Below, piece after piece: positions 7,406 through 22,852 of a stretch of DNA of 25,934 nucleotides (position 1 is its first letter; every line of letters begins with the position of its first letter). The translations under genes were made by a program, and so were the position numbers. The notes beneath the pieces were generated by a model that ran no database searches, was not told the origin of the DNA, and was given only the letters and a program-made list of their open reading frames with translations. Location: positions 1 through 25,934 of IMG/VR virus record IMGVR_UViG_3300028025_000353; one strand, 5' to 3'. This DNA comes from a virus.

Positions 7406-7642
7406 TTATTTAGGTTGGCGTGCCGCGTATAATGCCGCAGTTGCCATTTGGTCTTTCTTTTCTGGAGTCTTGTTTTTAAACTGACGATACTGATTTGGAT
7501 TAGCAGTTTGGAAACGTTCTTTCCAATAGTCTAGCGACATCTCTGGTTTTAGTTTTGGTTGCGGTCCAATTTTTTTAATTGGTTCTGTAGCAGGAGCCTG
7601 TGCTGGTTCGGCAGCAGGGTCTTGAGGTTCCTGCTCACTTAC
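7406..7642 (-). CDS. C-terminal extension reached by -1 frameshift from the upstream modular protein
   Basis: This open frame encodes 78 residues, starting VSEQEPQDPAAEP and ending MATAALYAARQPK. It has no ATG in its first 34 codons. It starts as a Pro/Ala-rich linker and ends in a compact charged domain (MSLDYWKERF onward). It lies in the -1 frame relative to the 455-aa gene and is entered exactly by slipping on the A_AAA_AAG heptamer before that gene's TAA, giving a 533-aa fusion. An internal ATG at 7540 could in principle start a 44-aa protein, but it has only weak AGAG directly adjacent. The alternative is a sequencing or real indel in the A6 run. Confidence 0.6.
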   Translation of the reverse strand, partial: VSEQEPQDPAAEPAQAPATEPIKKIGPQPKLKPEMSLDYWKERFQTANPNQYRQFKNKTPEKKDQMATAALYAARQPK

Positions 7643-7659
7643 TTTTTTGCAAGTTCCTC
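7613..7659 (-). promoter_or_regulatory. Programmed -1 frameshift signal
   Basis: The codons GCA AAA AAG TAA contain the in-phase slippery heptamer A_AAA_AAG (7642-7648), the same as in E. coli dnaX. A Shine-Dalgarno-like GAGG lies seven bases upstream (7656-7659). A stem AGCAGG/CCTGCT (7630-7635 with 7613-7618, 11-nt loop) starts six bases downstream. A second partner (TCCTGCT at 7589-7595) could form a 7-bp alternative stem. Confidence 0.65.
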
Positions 7660-9006
7660 AACTTTGGCTCTTAGAGATTCAAAATATGGATCTGCACTTT
7701 CTTTCTTGTGGCTCTTGTAGCCTTTGTTTTTCATGGACCATGCTAGTGCAAATGGATTATCGATTTCGTCGTGCTTCTTCATTGCCTTAACAGTTTTTTC
7801 CCAACCTGGAGGAGCAACTTCTGCTACACTCTCTGATGGGTTCTCACCTGTTGGATGAACAGTTGCGTTCTTACCTTTGGCCTTTAATGATCTAGCAATG
7901 TTTTCAGCTTGGCGTTGATCTGCAAATACTTTCCAAGTCTTTCCGTCGATTGCTACTGCATAGTTATTTGTTTCGTGTGCTAGTTCTTGTCCTAGCCCTC
8001 TATGATCTGGACCACGACCCATTCCACTTACACTACTTGCATAATCTCTATCATATGCTGATGAACTACCACGCATTCTACCAAAGCCTTCTACTTGTGG
8101 ATCAACACCCATTTCTTTTTGACTTTGTAGATAATCCCAAACGCCTACTAACATCATTTCTGCTTTGGCAATTTTCTCTTGAACCCATTCTGGTAGGTTG
8201 TCTTTATCATCAATGGTCTTTAACAATCCCATAACTGCTCTTGCTGAAGTTAGTAGGTTATTATGTGCCATGCCAGCTTCATCATCATACTCACCATTAA
8301 AGCCTTCCGCCACACCTTGGCCTAATACTTGTTTTACTAACAGTTGGGGAGCAAACTCCATACCACCTGCTAATTCTCTTGCGGCTGCTAATACTGCCTC
8401 TGGAGTAGGTTTTAATCTTTTTTCTTCGACATCTCTGCGAAGTTTTGTAATAAGGGACTGTGCGTCATAACCTAATCCGCCAATACCTTCTGCCACGCCT
8501 TCTTTATACGGCATTGGATTACGCATATCTCTTAACTTGCGGACCATAGTATTTAAGTCACTTAAATTTACGCTGCCAGCATCGGCAAGATCGTCATTTC
8601 TAATTAACCCAATAGAGAATTGTTTGCGGTTCTTGTAAAAATACAATTTATTAAAAGTTGTGCCAAAATAGTCAGCACCATAATGATTGAGGACCTTCTG
8701 AGCAGTTCGCATTGGCACAGTTTCTGCTACACCTTCTGCCATTTCTTTATTCTTATGCTTTACGTCACCTTGTTTAGCAGCCTTCTTCTTGTCCTTGTGC
8801 TGACCAGCACCGCCCATCTTAGCGTTTTTAGCAACAAAGTTGCGAGGCTTAGGTGTCTCTTTTTTCTCTTGTGCAAGAATACTATCACTGCGTTTTTTAC
8901 CTGGGGCTGTAGCAACAACTCCGGCACTAGTAGCACCCGCAGTGGCAGTTTCTAAAACATAACGTGTATCGTTATTATCTTTTATTTTTTTGAATTCGCT
9001 GGTCAT
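7639..9006 (-). CDS. Modular virion/head-associated protein with repeated VAE sites
   Basis: This 455-aa protein is built of short domains joined by linkers. The N-terminal region (1-90) has ATAGATSAG, PRNFVAKNAKMGGAG and a Lys-rich tail (KDKKKAAKQGDVKHKNK). Domains follow at about 99-160, 178-230 and 236-300 (a helical unit with LPEWVQEKIAKAEMML), then 346-390 (NNYAVAIDGKTWKVF) and 398-440 (PPGWEKTVKAMKKH). Boundaries carry VAE at 93-95, 171-173, 232-234 and 394-396, usually as (G)VAEG, resembling sites of a T4-type prohead protease, which cuts after (L/I)xE. I recall such modules in other aquatic phage proteins, without known function. ATG overlaps the upstream stop (ATGA). The gene ends on a slippery heptamer giving a 78-residue extension. 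A role as an internal head protein is inferred. Confidence 0.7.
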   Translation of the reverse strand: MTSEFKKIKDNNDTRYVLETATAGATSAGVVATAPGKKRSDSILAQEKKETPKPRNFVAKNAKMGGAGQHKDKKKAAKQGDVKHKNKEMAEGVAETVPMRTAQKVLNHYGADYFGTTFNKLYFYKNRKQFSIGLIRNDDLADAGSVNLSDLNTMVRKLRDMRNPMPYKEGVAEGIGGLGYDAQSLITKLRRDVEEKRLKPTPEAVLAAARELAGGMEFAPQLLVKQVLGQGVAEGFNGEYDDEAGMAHNNLLTSARAVMGLLKTIDDKDNLPEWVQEKIAKAEMMLVGVWDYLQSQKEMGVDPQVEGFGRMRGSSSAYDRDYASSVSGMGRGPDHRGLGQELAHETNNYAVAIDGKTWKVFADQRQAENIARSLKAKGKNATVHPTGENPSESVAEVAPPGWEKTVKAMKKHDEIDNPFALAWSMKNKGYKSHKKESADPYFESLRAKVEELAKK

Positions 9007-9371
9007 TTTGTTTTATTCCAATTTGATACAGGGCTTACTGTATTAGTACTGTTTAGTTCTTTACTACTCATGTCGCCGTGGTTAAGATCTTTATAATCAG
9101 CACCTGCAAGTTTGTATGCTTGTTTAAGCATATCGGCTTCTACTTTAGTATAGGGAGCGGTTAGTTTTCTCTTACCAATCCAGCTTAGGTAATCTACATC
9201 GGGATTGTTAGTGCCGTCACACATTGCGGCTGCAAGTCCTACCCTGTTAAAGGTGTAATCACTGTTAGCTTTTTCTGCATCGCTGAATACGTGCAGGCCC
9301 CGTGTAGAGTTTTGTTGTCTCTTTGACAACTTTCCTGCCTTACGTTCAGTGATAAGTTCGAGTATCTTCAT
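9003..9371 (-). CDS. Conserved phage protein with head-targeting-like N-terminus
   Basis: This 122-aa protein begins MKILELITE|RKAGKL, a short amphipathic helix ending in I-T-E, which resembles the capsid-targeting peptides of T4 internal head proteins cleaved after (L/I)xE by the prohead protease. The mature part is basic (KLSKRQQNSTRGLHVF) and mostly helical, with Asp/Gly-rich loops. No enzyme motif is visible. I recall related short proteins in T4-like phages, function unknown. It sits six bases downstream of the 86-aa gene and overlaps the next gene by ATGA, within the head-protein block. Packaging into the capsid is inferred from the N-terminus only. Confidence 0.7.
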   Translation of the reverse strand: MKILELITERKAGKLSKRQQNSTRGLHVFSDAEKANSDYTFNRVGLAAAMCDGTNNPDVDYLSWIGKRKLTAPYTKVEADMLKQAYKLAGADYKDLNHGDMSSKELNSTNTVSPVSNWNKTK

Positions 9372-9377
9372 AATGTA

Positions 9378-9638
9378 TTATTTACCACCGCCGAACCATA
9401 ACTTAAACCATTCATCGGTGCCCGGTTTAATGCCTTGTTCTCGCTGTATCTGTCCTTTACTACTACCTAAAACAGGCTGTTTAAGTGTAGCATTGTATTC
9501 TGCAAGCCGAGCTTGTCCACCTAATCCTCCCATAATACTAACAGCTTTTAAGGCATGTATAGGGTCATCTGCGGCAAGGTACGCATCATCTCCGCTGTCT
9601 TGCGGAACATCATTTGCGGTTATTCTGTACTGCTTCAT
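9378..9638 (-). CDS. Small hypothetical protein of the head block
   Basis: This 86-aa protein begins MKQYRITANDVPQD and carries an AYLAADDPIHALKA helix and a Gly-rich middle (IMGGLGGQARL). Its C-terminus, PGTDEWFKLWFGGGK, recalls the end of the Pol-beta-type nucleotidyltransferase in the same operon (EGSQEWFRFLIDHIL). It overlaps the end of the adenylyltransferase gene by 29 bases in another frame and has no strong ribosome-binding site, so it is probably expressed by coupling. Function is unknown. Confidence 0.6.
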   Translation of the reverse strand: MKQYRITANDVPQDSGDDAYLAADDPIHALKAVSIMGGLGGQARLAEYNATLKQPVLGSSKGQIQREQGIKPGTDEWFKLWFGGGK

Positions 9639-10827
9639 TGACGATAATCTTATTGATTAAGTTATCCATGATATTTTCCACGCCTTCGCTGACAGGAACG
9701 CAGTTGTTAACTCTAACCCCGCCCTTCATTTTTGTTCCAGACTTGCGATAACCCTTCCAGCATTTAGGATCTAATCGTTGTTTTTCTTCTGCTAATCCTG
9801 GAATAGGATGTAAGCCTTTAGGAACTTCGCCAGTCCAGTGTTGTGAGCCTGGTTTAGATGGTAAATCTCTTATAGCGTTATCTTCTGCTAGTTCGCATAA
9901 TTTAGTATGATGTAAGAATATTGTACTACCGCAATCATAACAAGGATAGTTATCTGTTGGATCTTCTCCGTCATCACCGCTGGCAAATTCATTCACACCT
10001 TTAGCATCGTTGGCAAACTGTTTCTTAGTTGCTTTAACAATGCCACTGAAGCGTTTGTTTGCACGTTCAGTATCGCCTGCCTTATCTGCGGCACTGGCAT
10101 CGGCAGCCGCTGCCTTTTTATAACGACCTAACAAGTCATTGGATAATTCGTTAACAGGAGCAGCCTTGGCTTTTTTAGGTTTAGGAGCACTCATAGCAGT
10201 CATGCGTTCTTTGGCCTTTGCCATTAGATCACGCACATCATCATCGCTGACCTGCGGATTCATAGCATCACGCCATACTTGGAATTGTTCTTCTTCACTC
10301 TTAGTAGGATCCATTAATACTGCTCTCATAGGAGTAGCACGTGGACCTTCTTCGCCTGCACTTGGATCACTGGTTTCTTGACGACTGATAACATCTAATG
10401 TATCAAACTTATAAGGAACATTACCTGCCTTGTCTGGCTTGCCGTTATAGTTCTTTAGGTATTGAAACGCTTTAACTTGATCAGCACCTAGTACAATAGT
10501 AGCACTGGTGTAACCTTGACGATTTAAATCTGATAGTACTCTAGTTAAATCTGGAATTTCATCTGTGGCAGTTTGGAAAATATGACCTTGTTCTGGGAAT
10601 ACTTTTTTATAGATGGCTAGTTTTTCTTCTGGAGTAATAGGGTCATCCTTGCCCACTGTACGACTAACAACAAAGTAAGGATCAGCACCTAATTGATTTG
10701 CATGAGTAATAACACTACTGGCTAGGTACATATGACCTTTGTGGCCCATACCTCTACCCCAACCAACAACTGCGGCCTTGCCTTCTCCGGTTCTCGCCAG
10801 TGCTTCAAAAATATTTCTTAAAAACAT
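9610..10827 (-). CDS. HxGH-type adenylyl/cytidylyltransferase fused to Cys-containing C-terminal region
   Basis: With ATG at 10827 the protein is 405 aa. This start lies one base after the upstream stop, has AGGAAAG ahead of it, and gives the N-terminus MFLRNIFE|AL with a head-targeting-like IFE site; an upstream start at 10971 would overlap the ligase-like gene by 143 bases. Residues 20-33 (VGWGRGMGHKGHMY) contain the nucleotide-binding HxGH motif (29-32). ATIVLGADQ and PRATPMRAV provide the later strand and SxTxxR-like motifs of NMNAT-type nucleotidyltransferases. The C-terminal third holds CYDCG, a further Cys (KLCEL) and DPKCWKGYRKSGTK with VNNCVP, possible metal or structural Cys sites. 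The substrate (NMN, pantetheine phosphate or other) cannot be told. It is the third nucleotidyl-transfer enzyme in a row. Confidence 0.75.
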   Translation of the reverse strand: MFLRNIFEALARTGEGKAAVVGWGRGMGHKGHMYLASSVITHANQLGADPYFVVSRTVGKDDPITPEEKLAIYKKVFPEQGHIFQTATDEIPDLTRVLSDLNRQGYTSATIVLGADQVKAFQYLKNYNGKPDKAGNVPYKFDTLDVISRQETSDPSAGEEGPRATPMRAVLMDPTKSEEEQFQVWRDAMNPQVSDDDVRDLMAKAKERMTAMSAPKPKKAKAAPVNELSNDLLGRYKKAAAADASAADKAGDTERANKRFSGIVKATKKQFANDAKGVNEFASGDDGEDPTDNYPCYDCGSTIFLHHTKLCELAEDNAIRDLPSKPGSQHWTGEVPKGLHPIPGLAEEKQRLDPKCWKGYRKSGTKMKGGVRVNNCVPVSEGVENIMDNLINKIIVNEAVQNNRK

Positions 10828-10828
10828 A

Positions 10829-11968
10829 TTAGTCTTTCCTTGGTGCCCAGTTTGCTTGGTCAATTGCTTTAACAAATTGTCCAGGTAGGTCACGTTTAAA
10901 CGGTGTCCCCGGATGTGCCTGTACATAACCTTCTGGCTTAGTTTGACGGATACCGCCGTGTGTACCTGCACTTAATTTATTGATCAATTGTAGTTTTTCT
11001 CTGCTTAATAAATCTACACTGTGTAGTACAGCGTTTAGTCCGTTTTGGTCTGCAAGAATCTTCTGTGCTTGACCTGCACTTACATTAGCAGTGACCCAGT
11101 CTTGGAACTTGTCCTTGACTCCTGGTATGCGTAGATTTTGATTATAGAATTTATAAAGGATATCACCTGGCTTGCTTAGTCCTGGCTTGGGTGCAAGGAA
11201 AGCATCAATAGCGGCAGCATTAGCAGTGATATACTGTTCAGCAGCCGCTAGTCCTTTGTCCTCTACGCCCGGCGCTTTCTCAACGTAGGTTGTACCTTGT
11301 ACAATAACATCTGGGGTACTTAGTGCTTCTGCATTTGGATAACGACCTTCTTCACTACTACCCAATGAATCATAGAAGCCTGTAACTGCAACCATAACTT
11401 TGGCATTCTTAATACGTTTGCCTAAGTCACTGGCTACAGGAATGTGGAAAGCTGTGATGTTGGGAGTAAAATCGTATTCTTGTGTTTGTGGATTTAACTG
11501 TGCAGGCTTGCTTGGGTAGAATAATAGTCCACCTTCAACATAACCTTTTTCTGGACTTACCTTTTCAAAGTAGGGCCATAAGTCCATCATCTCTTGTGCA
11601 AATGCTTGACGTTGCGGCATCTGTTCGGGAGTTGCTTTGCCTGTACCTAGTACAAAGTTCTTAATATCTTCTGGACTGTACATTGCTGTAGGAACACCTG
11701 GACTGACTTCGGTCTTACCGCGCTTTAAATATTCCCAAGCGTTCTTTGGAATCATTGAGAAGCGGCCTTGCTCATCCTTGCCCCAGTACATGACAGGACT
11801 GCCATCCCATTTCAATTCAATAGTGCTGCCTTGTGTCCCCATGCTTTGCAATCTTTCAACAGCATGTAGGCCTCCGGTACTACCGTTGGTAAACACCAAA
11901 TCTTCAATGTGCTGGTACTTGCGACCTATTGCGGCAGCGGCTTCAATGATTAGTTCACGTATCTTCAT
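10829..11968 (-). CDS. KxDG ligase/nucleotidyltransferase-like phage protein with head-targeting N-terminus
   Basis: This 379-aa protein begins MKIRELIIE|AAAAIG, an ideal T4-like capsid-targeting peptide ending in (L/I)xE. IELKWDGSPVMYWG (50-63) has the K-x-D-G arrangement (Lys53, Asp55, Gly56) of motif I of ATP-dependent DNA/RNA ligases. GYVEGGLLFYP (142-152) could supply the motif III glutamate, and NITAFHIPV (170-178) resembles the following strand. Later ligase motifs (IV, V) are not obvious, so it may be a divergent or repurposed nucleotidyltransferase. I recall this as a widespread phage family of unknown function. It is coupled on both sides: ATGA overlap with the Pol-beta-type gene upstream and one base before the HxGH enzyme. 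Activity is inferred from motif I only. Confidence 0.6.
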   Translation of the reverse strand: MKIRELIIEAAAAIGRKYQHIEDLVFTNGSTGGLHAVERLQSMGTQGSTIELKWDGSPVMYWGKDEQGRFSMIPKNAWEYLKRGKTEVSPGVPTAMYSPEDIKNFVLGTGKATPEQMPQRQAFAQEMMDLWPYFEKVSPEKGYVEGGLLFYPSKPAQLNPQTQEYDFTPNITAFHIPVASDLGKRIKNAKVMVAVTGFYDSLGSSEEGRYPNAEALSTPDVIVQGTTYVEKAPGVEDKGLAAAEQYITANAAAIDAFLAPKPGLSKPGDILYKFYNQNLRIPGVKDKFQDWVTANVSAGQAQKILADQNGLNAVLHSVDLLSREKLQLINKLSAGTHGGIRQTKPEGYVQAHPGTPFKRDLPGQFVKAIDQANWAPRKD

Positions 11969-12696
11969 AGGATGTGATCAATTAAGAATCTAAACCATTC
12001 TTGACTGCCTTCTTTAAGGTCAGCACCTGGGAAGTATTTGTCTCTAATGGCAACATACTTTTGTGGATATGGTTTAAGTGCGGCTAATACTCGTTGTGGA
12101 TTGCCCATGTCTGCGGCAGAGGCAGTTGGTCCAATAATGATTTTAGCAATCTCGTCTTTGTTATTTGTGACTAATTCTTTAGTTGTACGATCAACAAGTC
12201 CTTTATATGGACTCATCATAAGACTTTCATGGCCTTCAGCTTTACTCATATTGGCTAAGTCGGCCCATATACCATGAAGTGTGCCACCTTTCATGTTAGG
12301 ATCGCTGTAGTCATGTGTATGTAGTGGTTGAGCAGCAGCGGCATTTTCTACTGCCATTAAATCAACTTGTACTACGTCTTGTGTGCTACCAATTGGAATA
12401 CCAACGTGAATACTAACACCTGTACGTGCGGCAAATAAACCTTTGCTCTTAAAATAATCTTCTAAGGCTTTACGACTTAGTTTCAATTCTTTAGCTGGGA
12501 ACGCTGTCATCAATTCGCCAGCATCAATAAGTGCGTCAATATCACTGCTGACTTCTTTGTGTCCTGCTGATCCGATAGGGTATAGATTCAATCCCTGCGG
12601 AAGAATCTTTTTTAGGTTAGCCATTACTAAAGGAAAATTTGCCTTTTGTAATTCAACTGCGTTTGGTACTACGTTTCCGCCTTCATTTAATTGCAT
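11965..12696 (-). CDS. Pol-beta-superfamily nucleotidyltransferase
   Basis: The 243-aa protein shows the minimal signature of this superfamily. YPIGSAGHKEVSSDIDALID has Gly-Ser at 42-43 followed by Asp52 and Asp54 of the DxD metal pair, and QDVVQVDLM carries the third Asp (Asp112). Relatives add nucleotides to RNA or proteins or modify antibiotics, so the acceptor here is unknown. It begins MQLNE|GGN, an LNE site like that of a prohead-protease target placed at the very start. Its C-terminus contains GSQEWFRF, related to the end of the 86-aa protein in the same operon. It is coupled by ATGA to the ligase-like gene. Toxin-antitoxin membership is unlikely because no small partner lies beside it. 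Confidence 0.75.
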   Translation of the reverse strand: MQLNEGGNVVPNAVELQKANFPLVMANLKKILPQGLNLYPIGSAGHKEVSSDIDALIDAGELMTAFPAKELKLSRKALEDYFKSKGLFAARTGVSIHVGIPIGSTQDVVQVDLMAVENAAAAQPLHTHDYSDPNMKGGTLHGIWADLANMSKAEGHESLMMSPYKGLVDRTTKELVTNNKDEIAKIIIGPTASAADMGNPQRVLAALKPYPQKYVAIRDKYFPGADLKEGSQEWFRFLIDHIL

Positions 12697-12700
12697 GTTA

Positions 12701-13060
12701 TTACCCTAACTTATACTTGTCTGCTTGAATGTCATCATAGAAGTGGTCGTGTATACGTTGACATAAACTTTCTCTAACTTCTTTAGGAAACATCTTACCT
12801 AATTTTCCTGTCATCTTTTTATCTTGATAATATTCTTTACATCCCTTTTCGACCATAGGCATGTATAATTCTAAGACCATCTCCGGAGCGCACTCTTTTA
12901 AATTTTTTAATTTTTTAGCAATAGGAAAGAAATAGTCTTTATGTAATTTATCGTGGTCAAGAATATACCAGAATAATTCATCTTCAAATTTTGGATTATC
13001 CTTATTCTTTTTTTGATAATCCAAATCCATGGGCTTGTTAAAAAATTCGAGTAGTTTCAT
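12701..13060 (-). CDS. Hypothetical helical protein of the head block
   Basis: This 119-aa protein starts MKLLEFFNKPMDLD, similar in position and character to the head-targeting leaders of its neighbours but without a clear (L/I)xE site. The rest is predicted helical and rich in Lys, Asp, Met and aromatic residues (FWYILDHDKLHKDYFFPIAKKL, of which the His/Asp pairs have no recognised catalytic pattern). Two short Cys-containing helices follow. No strong ribosome-binding site is seen. It lies five bases or fewer from the genes on both sides. Function is unknown; virion association is inferred from neighbours. Confidence 0.65.
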   Translation of the reverse strand: MKLLEFFNKPMDLDYQKKNKDNPKFEDELFWYILDHDKLHKDYFFPIAKKLKNLKECAPEMVLELYMPMVEKGCKEYYQDKKMTGKLGKMFPKEVRESLCQRIHDHFYDDIQADKYKLG

Positions 13061-21535: not shown

Positions 21536-22282
21536 TTACCAACGATCCTTTTCAATGACTATAGCCTTTGATCCGTTTCTAATTAAAAATTTATTTCCAA
21601 TTTTATTAATGTCGTAGTTTCCTAGATATTTTGTTAAGAAAAACATCTGACTCTGACTTGCTTCGTCTAAACTTAGCTTGCCTGGGACTGTGTCTTTTAC
21701 AACATCATAGTCACCTATAGCAATAAATTTAGCCTGGATATCTCCGGCATATGAACGTTTGAATGTTAACATGTTGTTTTCATCCAACTCAACATCTGTA
21801 GCACCTTGATCAAAGAATTCTTTAATATCGTTTTCTTTTATGGCAACTACTTTTGCTTGATAATCTTCTTTAGTTAGAGGAATGTTCTTGGCAATAGAGT
21901 CTTCATTGAACTCTACACTTTCTGGAGCTTTCTGATATCTAAATCTCCAGCTACGGCAATCACATAGTTGGCCAATCCCACTTAATAGATCTTTTAATTG
22001 TTCTGTTAGGCCAGGAGTTCTTTCGATCTCAACAAACACCTGATACTGTCCGTCATTTTCTTCACCTGAACTAATATCAGCATCAAGGATAAAAGGATAA
22101 CCTTTTTCGATAAATTCCATCATATCGATGGCAGGATTCTTTTCACGTACACGGAAACCGAGAACAACAATATCGCTGTCTTCGCCCATCTTGCTACTGT
22201 ATCTATCTACTGTAAAAACTTCTGATACGTAGTTTCTTAGATCGCCTGATCTAAGACCTTCATTAAGCTGCTGGTTCTGCAT
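21536..22282 (-). CDS. Conserved T4-like phage protein, probably virion-associated
   Basis: This 248-aa protein begins MQNQQLNE|GLRSGD and continues RNYVSEVFTVDRYSSKMGED. The latter stretch is recognisable to me from a conserved protein family of T4-like cyanophages and pelagiphages. It is a mixed alpha/beta protein with a repeated layout (ILDADISSGEENDGQYQVFVEIERTP). The ending YLGNYDINKIGNKFLIRNGS is also typical. Function is not established to my knowledge. It overlaps the preceding gene by 20 bases and lies behind a late-type promoter, so late, structural or assembly use is likely. The LNE site near the start resembles a prohead-protease target. Confidence 0.65.
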   Translation of the reverse strand: MQNQQLNEGLRSGDLRNYVSEVFTVDRYSSKMGEDSDIVVLGFRVREKNPAIDMMEFIEKGYPFILDADISSGEENDGQYQVFVEIERTPGLTEQLKDLLSGIGQLCDCRSWRFRYQKAPESVEFNEDSIAKNIPLTKEDYQAKVVAIKENDIKEFFDQGATDVELDENNMLTFKRSYAGDIQAKFIAIGDYDVVKDTVPGKLSLDEASQSQMFFLTKYLGNYDINKIGNKFLIRNGSKAIVIEKDRW

Positions 22283-22784
22283 CTATTGGTGCCTCCTGAG
22301 CTGCTGAGCTCGCATCTATATCTTGTTTGCTATATTTCATTAGCTCTGCCATTCTGTTATGTTCTTGATTTTCTTTGCCTGTGTGGACATCTTGCATCAG
22401 CTTTTTAGGCATAGTAATTTTTACAGTCCAAATAGGATGGGCATCAATTTTACCCTTTTTAGTTCCAGGACGGAAATCTCCTGGCTCTTTAATCTTGCGA
22501 GGAACTAGAATTTCTTCTTTGGCAAATACAACTTCGCAGCCGTAGTCTGAAAGACGTTTGCCACCTTCTGGATCGGGCATGTTACTACGATCCCACATTA
22601 GTTTACAGGTTACATCGTATCTATTAACTTCGGGACCGGCAATGATTTCACCATCTTCCCAGTTCTTAAAGACATAGATGTCTAACTCATCGAGCACTCT
22701 TTCAAAGTCTTTTAAGACTCTAAAAGCACTATTATTCTCGCTAAGTGTTTGTAGGTTTTTAATAACGTCAATTATGTCGTGCAT
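22263..22784 (-). CDS. Conserved T4-like phage protein at head of late operon
   Basis: I place the start at ATG 22784 (MHDIIDVIKNLQTL; 173 aa) instead of an in-frame ATG at 22814. The upstream ATG overlaps the TATAAATA promoter element, while the downstream one has AAAGAG ahead of it and lies after the expected transcription start. MHDIIDVIKNL, LKDFERVLDELDIYVF and HPIWTVKITMPKKLMQDV recall a conserved family of T4-like cyanophages, function unknown, paired with the following gene there too as far as I remember. An Ala/Pro-rich tail (SSAAQEAPIDAEPAA) ends the protein. A virion or assembly role is inferred. Confidence 0.65.
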   Translation of the reverse strand: MHDIIDVIKNLQTLSENNSAFRVLKDFERVLDELDIYVFKNWEDGEIIAGPEVNRYDVTCKLMWDRSNMPDPEGGKRLSDYGCEVVFAKEEILVPRKIKEPGDFRPGTKKGKIDAHPIWTVKITMPKKLMQDVHTGKENQEHNRMAELMKYSKQDIDASSAAQEAPIDAEPAA

Positions 22785-22803
22785 AGGCTTTCTCTTTATC
22801 AAA

Positions 22804-22811
22804 TATTTATA
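22804..22811 (-). promoter_or_regulatory. T4-type late promoter TATAAATA
   Basis: The - strand reads TATAAATA, the complete T4 late-promoter -10 element, and it is the only perfect copy I found in the window. It lies 19 bases before the reassigned start codon of the first gene of the virion/lysis operon. T4 late promoters have no -35 and need the sliding clamp, and a gp45-like clamp is encoded here. Confidence 0.55.
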
Positions 22812-22852
22812 CATTCCTATGCCTAGATCGTTGCTAACCGTGGGGTCCGTTT

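Follow-up and report, generated by a model that had tools for sequence, protein, structure and literature searches.

In a 25,934-nucleotide virus record (IMG/VR IMGVR_UViG_3300028025_000353; a 25.9-kb fragment of a lake-phage genome, called the window below) we identified an operon on the minus strand, spanning positions 9610-12696, in which three genes successively encode a nucleotidyltransferase (NTase) of the Pol-beta superfamily (gene 1), a DUF6267 protein of the ligase type (gene 2) and a protein of the HIGH superfamily (gene 3). The phage probably delivers this enzyme trio into bacteria with its DNA, because each gene starts with a tag of the type that sends proteins to the phage head. 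We presume the window to belong to a T4-like phage, as it has open reading frames (ORFs) for a PhoH-like protein, a clamp loader, a family-B polymerase, a Clp ATPase and a DnaJ-like protein; T4-like phages are very abundant in water. Taken by itself, packaging of the trio in the phage head appears likely to us. The fuller reading, in which these would be internal head proteins that are ejected, with polymerase-like and ligase-like parts that treat one common nucleic acid and a HIGH enzyme that supplies or uses an adenylated cofactor, we hold with belief and doubt in about equal measure.

A preliminary description of this DNA had recognized three consecutive coupled genes for three different nucleotidyl-transfer enzymes, and both the coordinates and the coupling proved correct: the first two genes overlap by ATGA, and the ATG of gene 3 at 10827 (MFLRNIFE) lies one base past the stop of gene 2. 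A GTG-started ORF at 9610-10971 was rejected as a mechanical extension of gene 3 in favor of this ATG. Sequence or predicted structure supports the presence of three different nucleotidyl-transfer folds in one operon. The catalytic residues named earlier are present and conserved in alignments of 44, 54 and 40 sequences for genes 1, 2 and 3, respectively. Degraded catalytic residues in relatives had been proposed as evidence against the system; the motifs are kept in these alignments, and the dN/dS values of 0.02-0.13 in all three genes point to purifying selection, so none of them is degenerate. Models of defence systems gave zero matches.

All three proteins begin with peptides (MQLNE, MKIRELIIE and MFLRNIFE) that had been noted as ending in (L/I)xE, and an N-terminal leader of 5-19 residues ending in [L/I]xE is the mark of T4-type internal proteins. 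In T4, a stretch of 10 residues at the start of IPIII is enough for targeting, the cut made by gp21 falls behind L/I-X-E, and Alt is shortened by six residues through a cut at ITE-6 (PMC9026906, PMC5694885). The leader pattern is real and conserved, being found in 26 of 29 distinct DUF6267 N-termini and in 43 of 47 distinct NTase N-termini, with two 5'-truncated sequences and two leader variants making up the other four. The form [LIVM]xE↓GG (here and below an arrow marks a candidate cleavage point or module joint) persists in 23/24 single and 20/23 fused NTase N-termini, counting distinct sequences only. The letters vary while the pattern stays (MKIRELIIE, MRILELITE, MRLRELFE, MKLSDVLLFE), and in fused proteins the leader lies at the new front, with GGN still following [LIVM]xE in most of them. 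Leaders of the form M(K/R)xxE(L/F)(I/L)xE also recur on non-homologous genes of the cluster. When leader-type N-termini in the cluster were compared with those in the rest of each record, they were concentrated in the former (4/8 versus 2/31 in the window, P = 0.01; 5/10 versus 5/139 in G001, P = 1e-4; 5/12 versus 3/98 in G003, P = 3e-4), with the patterns and cluster borders having been set after looking at the data.

The protease expected for such leaders is encoded in three long relatives as a gp21-type protein (Peptidase_S77, E 1e-26 to 2e-28), the window being a 26-kb fragment without the gp21 protease region. The capsid protein of the relative G003 (PF07068, E 1e-96) reads KYLAE↓SATAGATSAGNVAT, also written KYLAE↓SATAGATSAGNVA, and from its alignment with other gp23 proteins we infer a cut after KYLAE. 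Three small genes of relatives join a leader directly to such a capsid-type site (MKIRELIE↓TATAGGTSAGNVA, MKIKELLE↓TATAGATSAG and MKIYDIIKE↓TATAGATSAGN), so that the leader type of the trio stands ahead of the capsid-type site in L044, L014 and L036. The window itself has a companion gene at 7639-9006 whose product matches the N-terminus of the G003 gp23 protein (15/22 identical, BLASTP E 1e-4).

Proteins of the gene 3 type have been reported in cyanophage virions on the basis of mass spectrometry, namely S-SZBM1_140 (PMC9146016 Table 1), ORF91 of S-SCSM1 (PMC9602691) and ORF154 of S-CREM2 (PMC10665884). We noted that the HIGH domain of gene 3 has homologues in S-SZBM1_140 and S-SCSM1 ORF91, which bear the leaders MRFRQFIIE↓A and MKSFLQFLKE↓A, and that the leaderless DUF6267 protein of S-SZBM1 is absent from the virion list of that phage. 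Published virion detection is limited to these cyanophage homologues of gene 3. Taken together, the leaders, the gp21 protease in relatives, the capsid-type site and the cyanophage virion homologues, all of them indirect evidence, give good support to the T4-type head targeting suggested in the preliminary description. In S-SCSM1 (L135:5185-10663) the NMNAT gene belongs to an unbroken run of five genes that all have virion protein as their annotation, and this whole cluster may be a locus of packaged proteins.

In the alignment of 44 diverse gene 1 sequences, D52 and D54 never vary and at least 90% have G42 and D112, defining an active-site set of GS (42-43), D52, D54 and D112. Its AlphaFold2 model has a pLDDT of 89.5, with only residues 1-5, the leader, below 50. 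The top Foldseek matches of this model were Pol mu, lambda and beta (E 6e-6), and VIA aligned it with the palm plus thumb of Pol beta with a Z of 10.7 over 165 residues; the palm with its three Asp residues and the thumb are seen at the level of fold only. Pfam models of family X polymerases (Pol X) matched 0/44 gene 1 sequences, and there was no confident Pfam, RlaP or PHROG family match. Profile comparisons (hhalign with trimmed alignments) gave a weak match to bacterial Pol X (E 0.03), whose collinear stretch extends from GS..DxD via QVDL into the thumb region, and a poorer one to RlaP (E 0.18). The RlaP model (PF10127) likewise matched 0/44, whereas bacterial RlaPs themselves score E 1e-65 or better. 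Assignments of gene 1 as an RlaP, MNT or CCA-type enzyme were rejected, the model matches being unconvincing. Profile searches for sequence relatives in the PDB returned nothing significant for genes 1, 2 or 3. Judged by its predicted fold gene 1 looks Pol X-like, with membership in Pol X unproven. Of the earlier assignment as a Pol-beta-type nucleotidyltransferase (GS...DxD, Asp112), the superfamily and residues stand, with the qualification that the protein looks more like the family-X polymerases than like a minimal nucleotidyltransferase.

Gene 2 matches PF19782/DUF6267 (Pfam E 8e-17), as do 54/54 members of its alignment. It had been described as a KxDG ligase-type protein with Lys53, and this lysine of the KWDG motif is invariant in 54/54. 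E346 of EGxV and K325 are likewise invariant and K367 (motif V) is conserved in at least 90%, such that ligase motifs I (K53xDG56), IV (E346GxV349) and V (the Lys) occur in order and are invariant or nearly so. Divergent members read ..KWDG..FGDLLY..EGYV..FKLIDR, which is the classic order of ligase motifs, and ahead of the nucleophile H20, E22 and D23 are also invariant. The model of gene 2 (pLDDT 89, residues 1-16 disordered) recovered RNA or DNA ligases in 50/50 of the best VIA rows, the top one being the Naegleria RNA ligase NgrRnl (Z 6.5, 181 residues). This fold match is weak, which an insertion of about 190 residues in gene 2 would lead one to expect, and is not decisive. The case for a ligase-type enzyme rests on the motif order together with the consistency of the list of fold matches to the predicted model. 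Nine cellular matches included no true homologue of gene 2, one being a 4-kb contig of a metagenome-assembled genome and the rest distant, partial and 20-29% identical, and a cellular origin was rejected on these grounds. A full-text search found no papers naming DUF6267.

Gene 3 matches phrog_3041 (E 7.5e-22). Across 40 aligned sequences G24, R25, G31, H32 and R168 are invariant and H29 is conserved in at least 90%, giving the GR..(H)xGH and C-terminal Arg motifs by which NMNAT-like members of the HIGH superfamily are recognized. Some relatives match CTP_transf_like and NMNAT models; the NMNAT models are matched by a few divergent relatives, and the window protein matches none. The tail of the protein consists of exchangeable modules: the whole ORF ranges from 333 to 880 aa among relatives, and the tail varies even between close ones. 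The preliminary description had seen an HxGH adenylyltransferase with an additional Cys-containing part; the HxGH type holds, and the Cys part resolves into promiscuous modules (phrog_4359, 9737 and others) rather than one fixed domain. Of 508 (non-independent) junctions between modules, 43% fall close to [VILA]xE, as against 26% at random, and GVAE is about 7-fold enriched. The tail could possibly be a polyprotein of payload modules that is cut by the head protease. A gene 3 homologue (L014:7142-8692) has a sigma-70 region 4 in its tail (Pfam E 5.6e-18), which is possibly a packaged piece of a transcription factor. Similar tails contain LysM with a weak VanY match (L035:4964-7663) and a cytidine deaminase domain (L050:7128-9398). 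Recurrent (Q)GVAE↓G joints were observed in the window companion at 7639-9006 and in the gene 3 tails of L012, L014, L022, L032 and L035, encoded by near-identical DNA (GAGCAAGGTGTGGCGGAAGGC in L022). This near-identity is suggestive of module shuffling at a repeated sequence, which may double as a protease site.

A survey of whether the three genes travel together, which the preliminary description had called for, revealed strong linkage. Among 79 viral DUF6267 loci collected without regard to neighboring genes, gene 1 is fused to or adjoins DUF6267 in 72, and gene 3 adjoins it in 65 of the 73 that could be evaluated. Natural fusion ORFs, redundant loci included, join gene 1 to gene 2 in 35 cases, gene 2 to gene 3 in 5 and all three in 2. 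More widely, DUF6267 is present in 464 phage records, mostly T4-like cyanophages. A gene 3 homologue adjoins it in P-HM1, DSL-LC02 and S-SZBM1 and lies at a distance of one or two genes in Melnitz and HTVC008M, and a family-X-like gene beside DUF6267 was looked for in these five phages with no match. Because gene 1 is missing beside the pair in these phages, the more widespread core seems to consist of ligase and HIGH protein, with the Pol X-like partner limited to a subset. Genes upstream of DUF6267 in these phages gave zero Pfam family matches. By eye only, the gene before DUF6267 in HTVC008M (L002:2517-3575), Melnitz (L004:3257-4342) and DSL-LC02 (L003:5119-5928) appears PD-(D/E)xK nuclease-like (TDxxIGNxxxSLK).

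In the mechanism that we propose, each protein or fusion would be built into the prohead core via its T4-type capsid-targeting leader, a gp21-type protease would cut the leaders after [L/I]xE, and the trio would be ejected together with the phage DNA into the new host. There the family-X-like gene 1 would add the missing nucleotide or nucleotides and the ligase-type gene 2 would then seal the break in the same nucleic acid, either incoming phage DNA or host or phage RNA, while gene 3 would adenylate nicotinamide mononucleotide or a small molecule akin to it, the simplest product being NAD+, and its tail would carry exchangeable small payload modules. Packaging in this phage, cleavage, ejection, the substrates and the order of reactions are our inferences. 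Gap filling plus sealing of nucleic acid is our best guess for the reaction of the trio. The most elaborate form of the proposal, a head-borne nucleic-acid repair machine of family-X-type polymerase, ligase and cofactor-making enzyme with polyprotein-like tails whose modules are freed by the head protease, we put forward only tentatively. For AMPylation, which had also been suggested, the support is confined to the predicted folds.

Several observations weigh against this proposal. The virion detections may represent carry-over, as their authors concede, DUF6267 occurs without a leader in several T4-like cyanophages, including S-SZBM1, and neither the S-SZBM1 nor the S-SCSM1 virion data recovered a certain small protein that bears a leader. 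Across all S-SZBM1 proteins leader patterns do not predict virion detection (not significant), and in S-SCSM1 there were too few cases for this comparison; the genome-wide leader tests are modestly significant only, and null in S-SZBM1. As to the enzymes, pairwise profile comparison links gene 1 only weakly to bacterial Pol X, the ligase fold match of gene 2 is likewise weak and not decisive (Foldseek E 0.02; Z at most 6.5), and T4-like cyanophages keep DUF6267 and gene 3 without gene 1 alongside.

The leaders could be ordinary gene starts kept by descent or duplication, with the enzymes being soluble early or middle proteins. [L/I]xE is short and has an internal background of 7-9% per comparable window, and S-SZBM1 shows no leader enrichment; we nevertheless think this quite improbable, given that non-homologous genes of one cluster share the pattern and it is significantly concentrated there, that three small genes have it directly ahead of the capsid-protein site, and that it persists as the letters change and shifts to the new N-terminus in fusions. 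Two other alternatives are the main rivals of our proposal. In one, the trio might be an RNA repair set of the RlaP/Rnl kind acting in the cell, in which gene 1 restores lost nucleotides, tRNAs that defence nucleases of the host have cleaved are rejoined by gene 2, and the leaders are incidental or package few copies. Such a reading would leave unexplained both the leaders and the virion detection of gene 3 homologues. It is in keeping with described pairs of a Pol-beta enzyme and an RNA ligase of such logic (RlaP, PMC7824862), with RNA ligases as the closest folds to gene 2, and with five related records having no PF09414 RNA ligase. We regard it as unlikely, as none of the 44 gene 1 sequences matches RlaP or another RNA-repair NTase above chance, their profile compares less well with RlaP than with Pol X, and the window shows no end-healing kinase or phosphatase and no tRNA or Rfam element. 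In the other, the trio might serve an NAD-centered counter-defence in which gene 3 rebuilds NAD+ after the action of a host NADase, and gene 2 (and 1) nucleotidylate a host target with NAD+ or ATP, much as packaged T4 Alt ADP-ribosylates RNA polymerase. Here the Pol X-like palm and thumb predicted for gene 1, which suit nucleic-acid ends, have to be set against the NMNAT models matched by gene 3 relatives, the frequent packaging of NAD-linked enzymes by myoviruses (PMC9503650) and the known virion NMNAT-like proteins (PMC9602691). As we saw no NadV or NAD-salvage partner within the window, and as neither a NadM-type Nudix domain nor a NadR-type kinase domain turned up in gene 3, this too strikes us as rather improbable.

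Positions of the trio, its parts and two companion genes in the window
Feature	Position	Strand	Basis
Gene 1: Pol-beta-superfamily NTase, predicted family-X-polymerase-like palm plus thumb; 243 aa	11965..12696	-	alignment, AlphaFold2, Foldseek, VIA
Gene 1 putative leader, MQLNE↓GGN	12682..12696	-	pLDDT <50 at residues 1-5; pattern kept in relatives
Gene 2: DUF6267 (PF19782, phrog_455), predicted ligase-superfamily nucleotidyltransferase; 379 aa	10829..11968	-	Pfam, motifs, model, VIA
Gene 2 putative leader, MKIRELIIE↓AAAAIG	11942..11968	-	residues 1-16 unordered in model; pattern kept
Gene 3: HIGH-superfamily NMNAT/cytidylyltransferase-like protein with modular tail; 405 aa	9610..10827	-	phrog_3041, models matched by relatives
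Gene 3 putative leader, MFLRNIFE↓ALARTG	10804..10827	-	sequence; relatives MRLRELLIE, MLLRELFE, MKLRQIFE
Gene 3 catalytic HIGH domain (H29xGH32, R168)	10183..10827	-	40-sequence alignment
Gene 3 hypervariable modular tail, joints VNE↓L, VNE↓F, LAE↓E, VSE↓G, VNE↓A	9613..10182	-	lengths and modules differ among relatives
Modular companion gene, 455 aa, GVAE joints; residues 12-33 (RYVLE↓TATAGATSAGVVAT) match capsid cleavage region	7639..9006	-	BLASTP
Companion gene with leader MKILELITE	9003..9371	-	sequence; leader kept in relatives

Upstream of gene 1, at 12701-13060, there is a conserved companion of 119 aa with a leader-like start (MKLLEFFNK..), which has no [L/I]xE at the usual distance. 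Elsewhere in the window, the ORFs at 21536-22282 and 22263-22814 are similar to PHROG families of 'virion structural, head and packaging' proteins (phrog_13138 and phrog_12928), and close to the N-termini of their products stand QLNE↓G and TLSE↓N, respectively.

A role for DUF6267 as a ligase-type enzyme with a polymerase-like partner and head leaders would offer testable functions for a widespread family, and points to phages equipping the cell with repair or NAD enzymes from time zero. Furthermore, the leader-plus-site rule, M(K/R)xxE(L/F)(I/L)xE↓A or ↓TATAGATSAG, provides a way to predict injected proteins from sequence. The claim of an undescribed system made in the preliminary description applies to the set and to DUF6267, but not to the virion-borne NMNAT-like protein, which is already present in cyanophage proteomes.

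The trio would represent a new variant of the internal-protein strategy of T4. Like the trio, T4 Alt and IPI-IPIII have a short N-terminal leader ending in [L/I]xE, a gp21-type protease is encoded in relatives of the window phage, and the genes vary between related phages; however, Alt acts as an ADP-ribosyltransferase and IPI-IPIII are small proteins, whereas the trio comprises three nucleotidyltransferases in one operon, sometimes fused, with modular payload tails. The cyanophage proteins S-SZBM1_140 and S-SCSM1 ORF91 share with gene 3 the HIGH domain and similar leaders, but these two and S-CREM2 ORF154 differ in having no family-X-like neighbor, other tail modules and a role that has merely been speculated on. 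Pairs of RlaP and RNA ligase likewise tie a Pol-beta-fold enzyme genetically to a ligase-superfamily enzyme, yet RlaP models fail to match gene 1, the ligase-type partner belongs to DUF6267 and not to Rnl1 or Rnl2, and the trio adds a HIGH enzyme and the head leader. Gene 1 resembles the family X DNA polymerases (Pol beta, lambda and mu; bacterial PolX) in its predicted palm and thumb, GS..DxD..D site and QVDL strand, and differs from them in having no 8-kDa lyase or PHP domain, in an identity of 8-18% and in being missed by the Pfam Pol X models. Gene 2 shares with NgrRnl, T4 Rnl1 and fungal Trl1, its best fold matches, the KxDG, EGxV and Lys motif V in order, but is set apart from them by weak fold scores, a long helical insertion between motifs III and IV, and the conserved H20-x-E22-D23 before the nucleophile.

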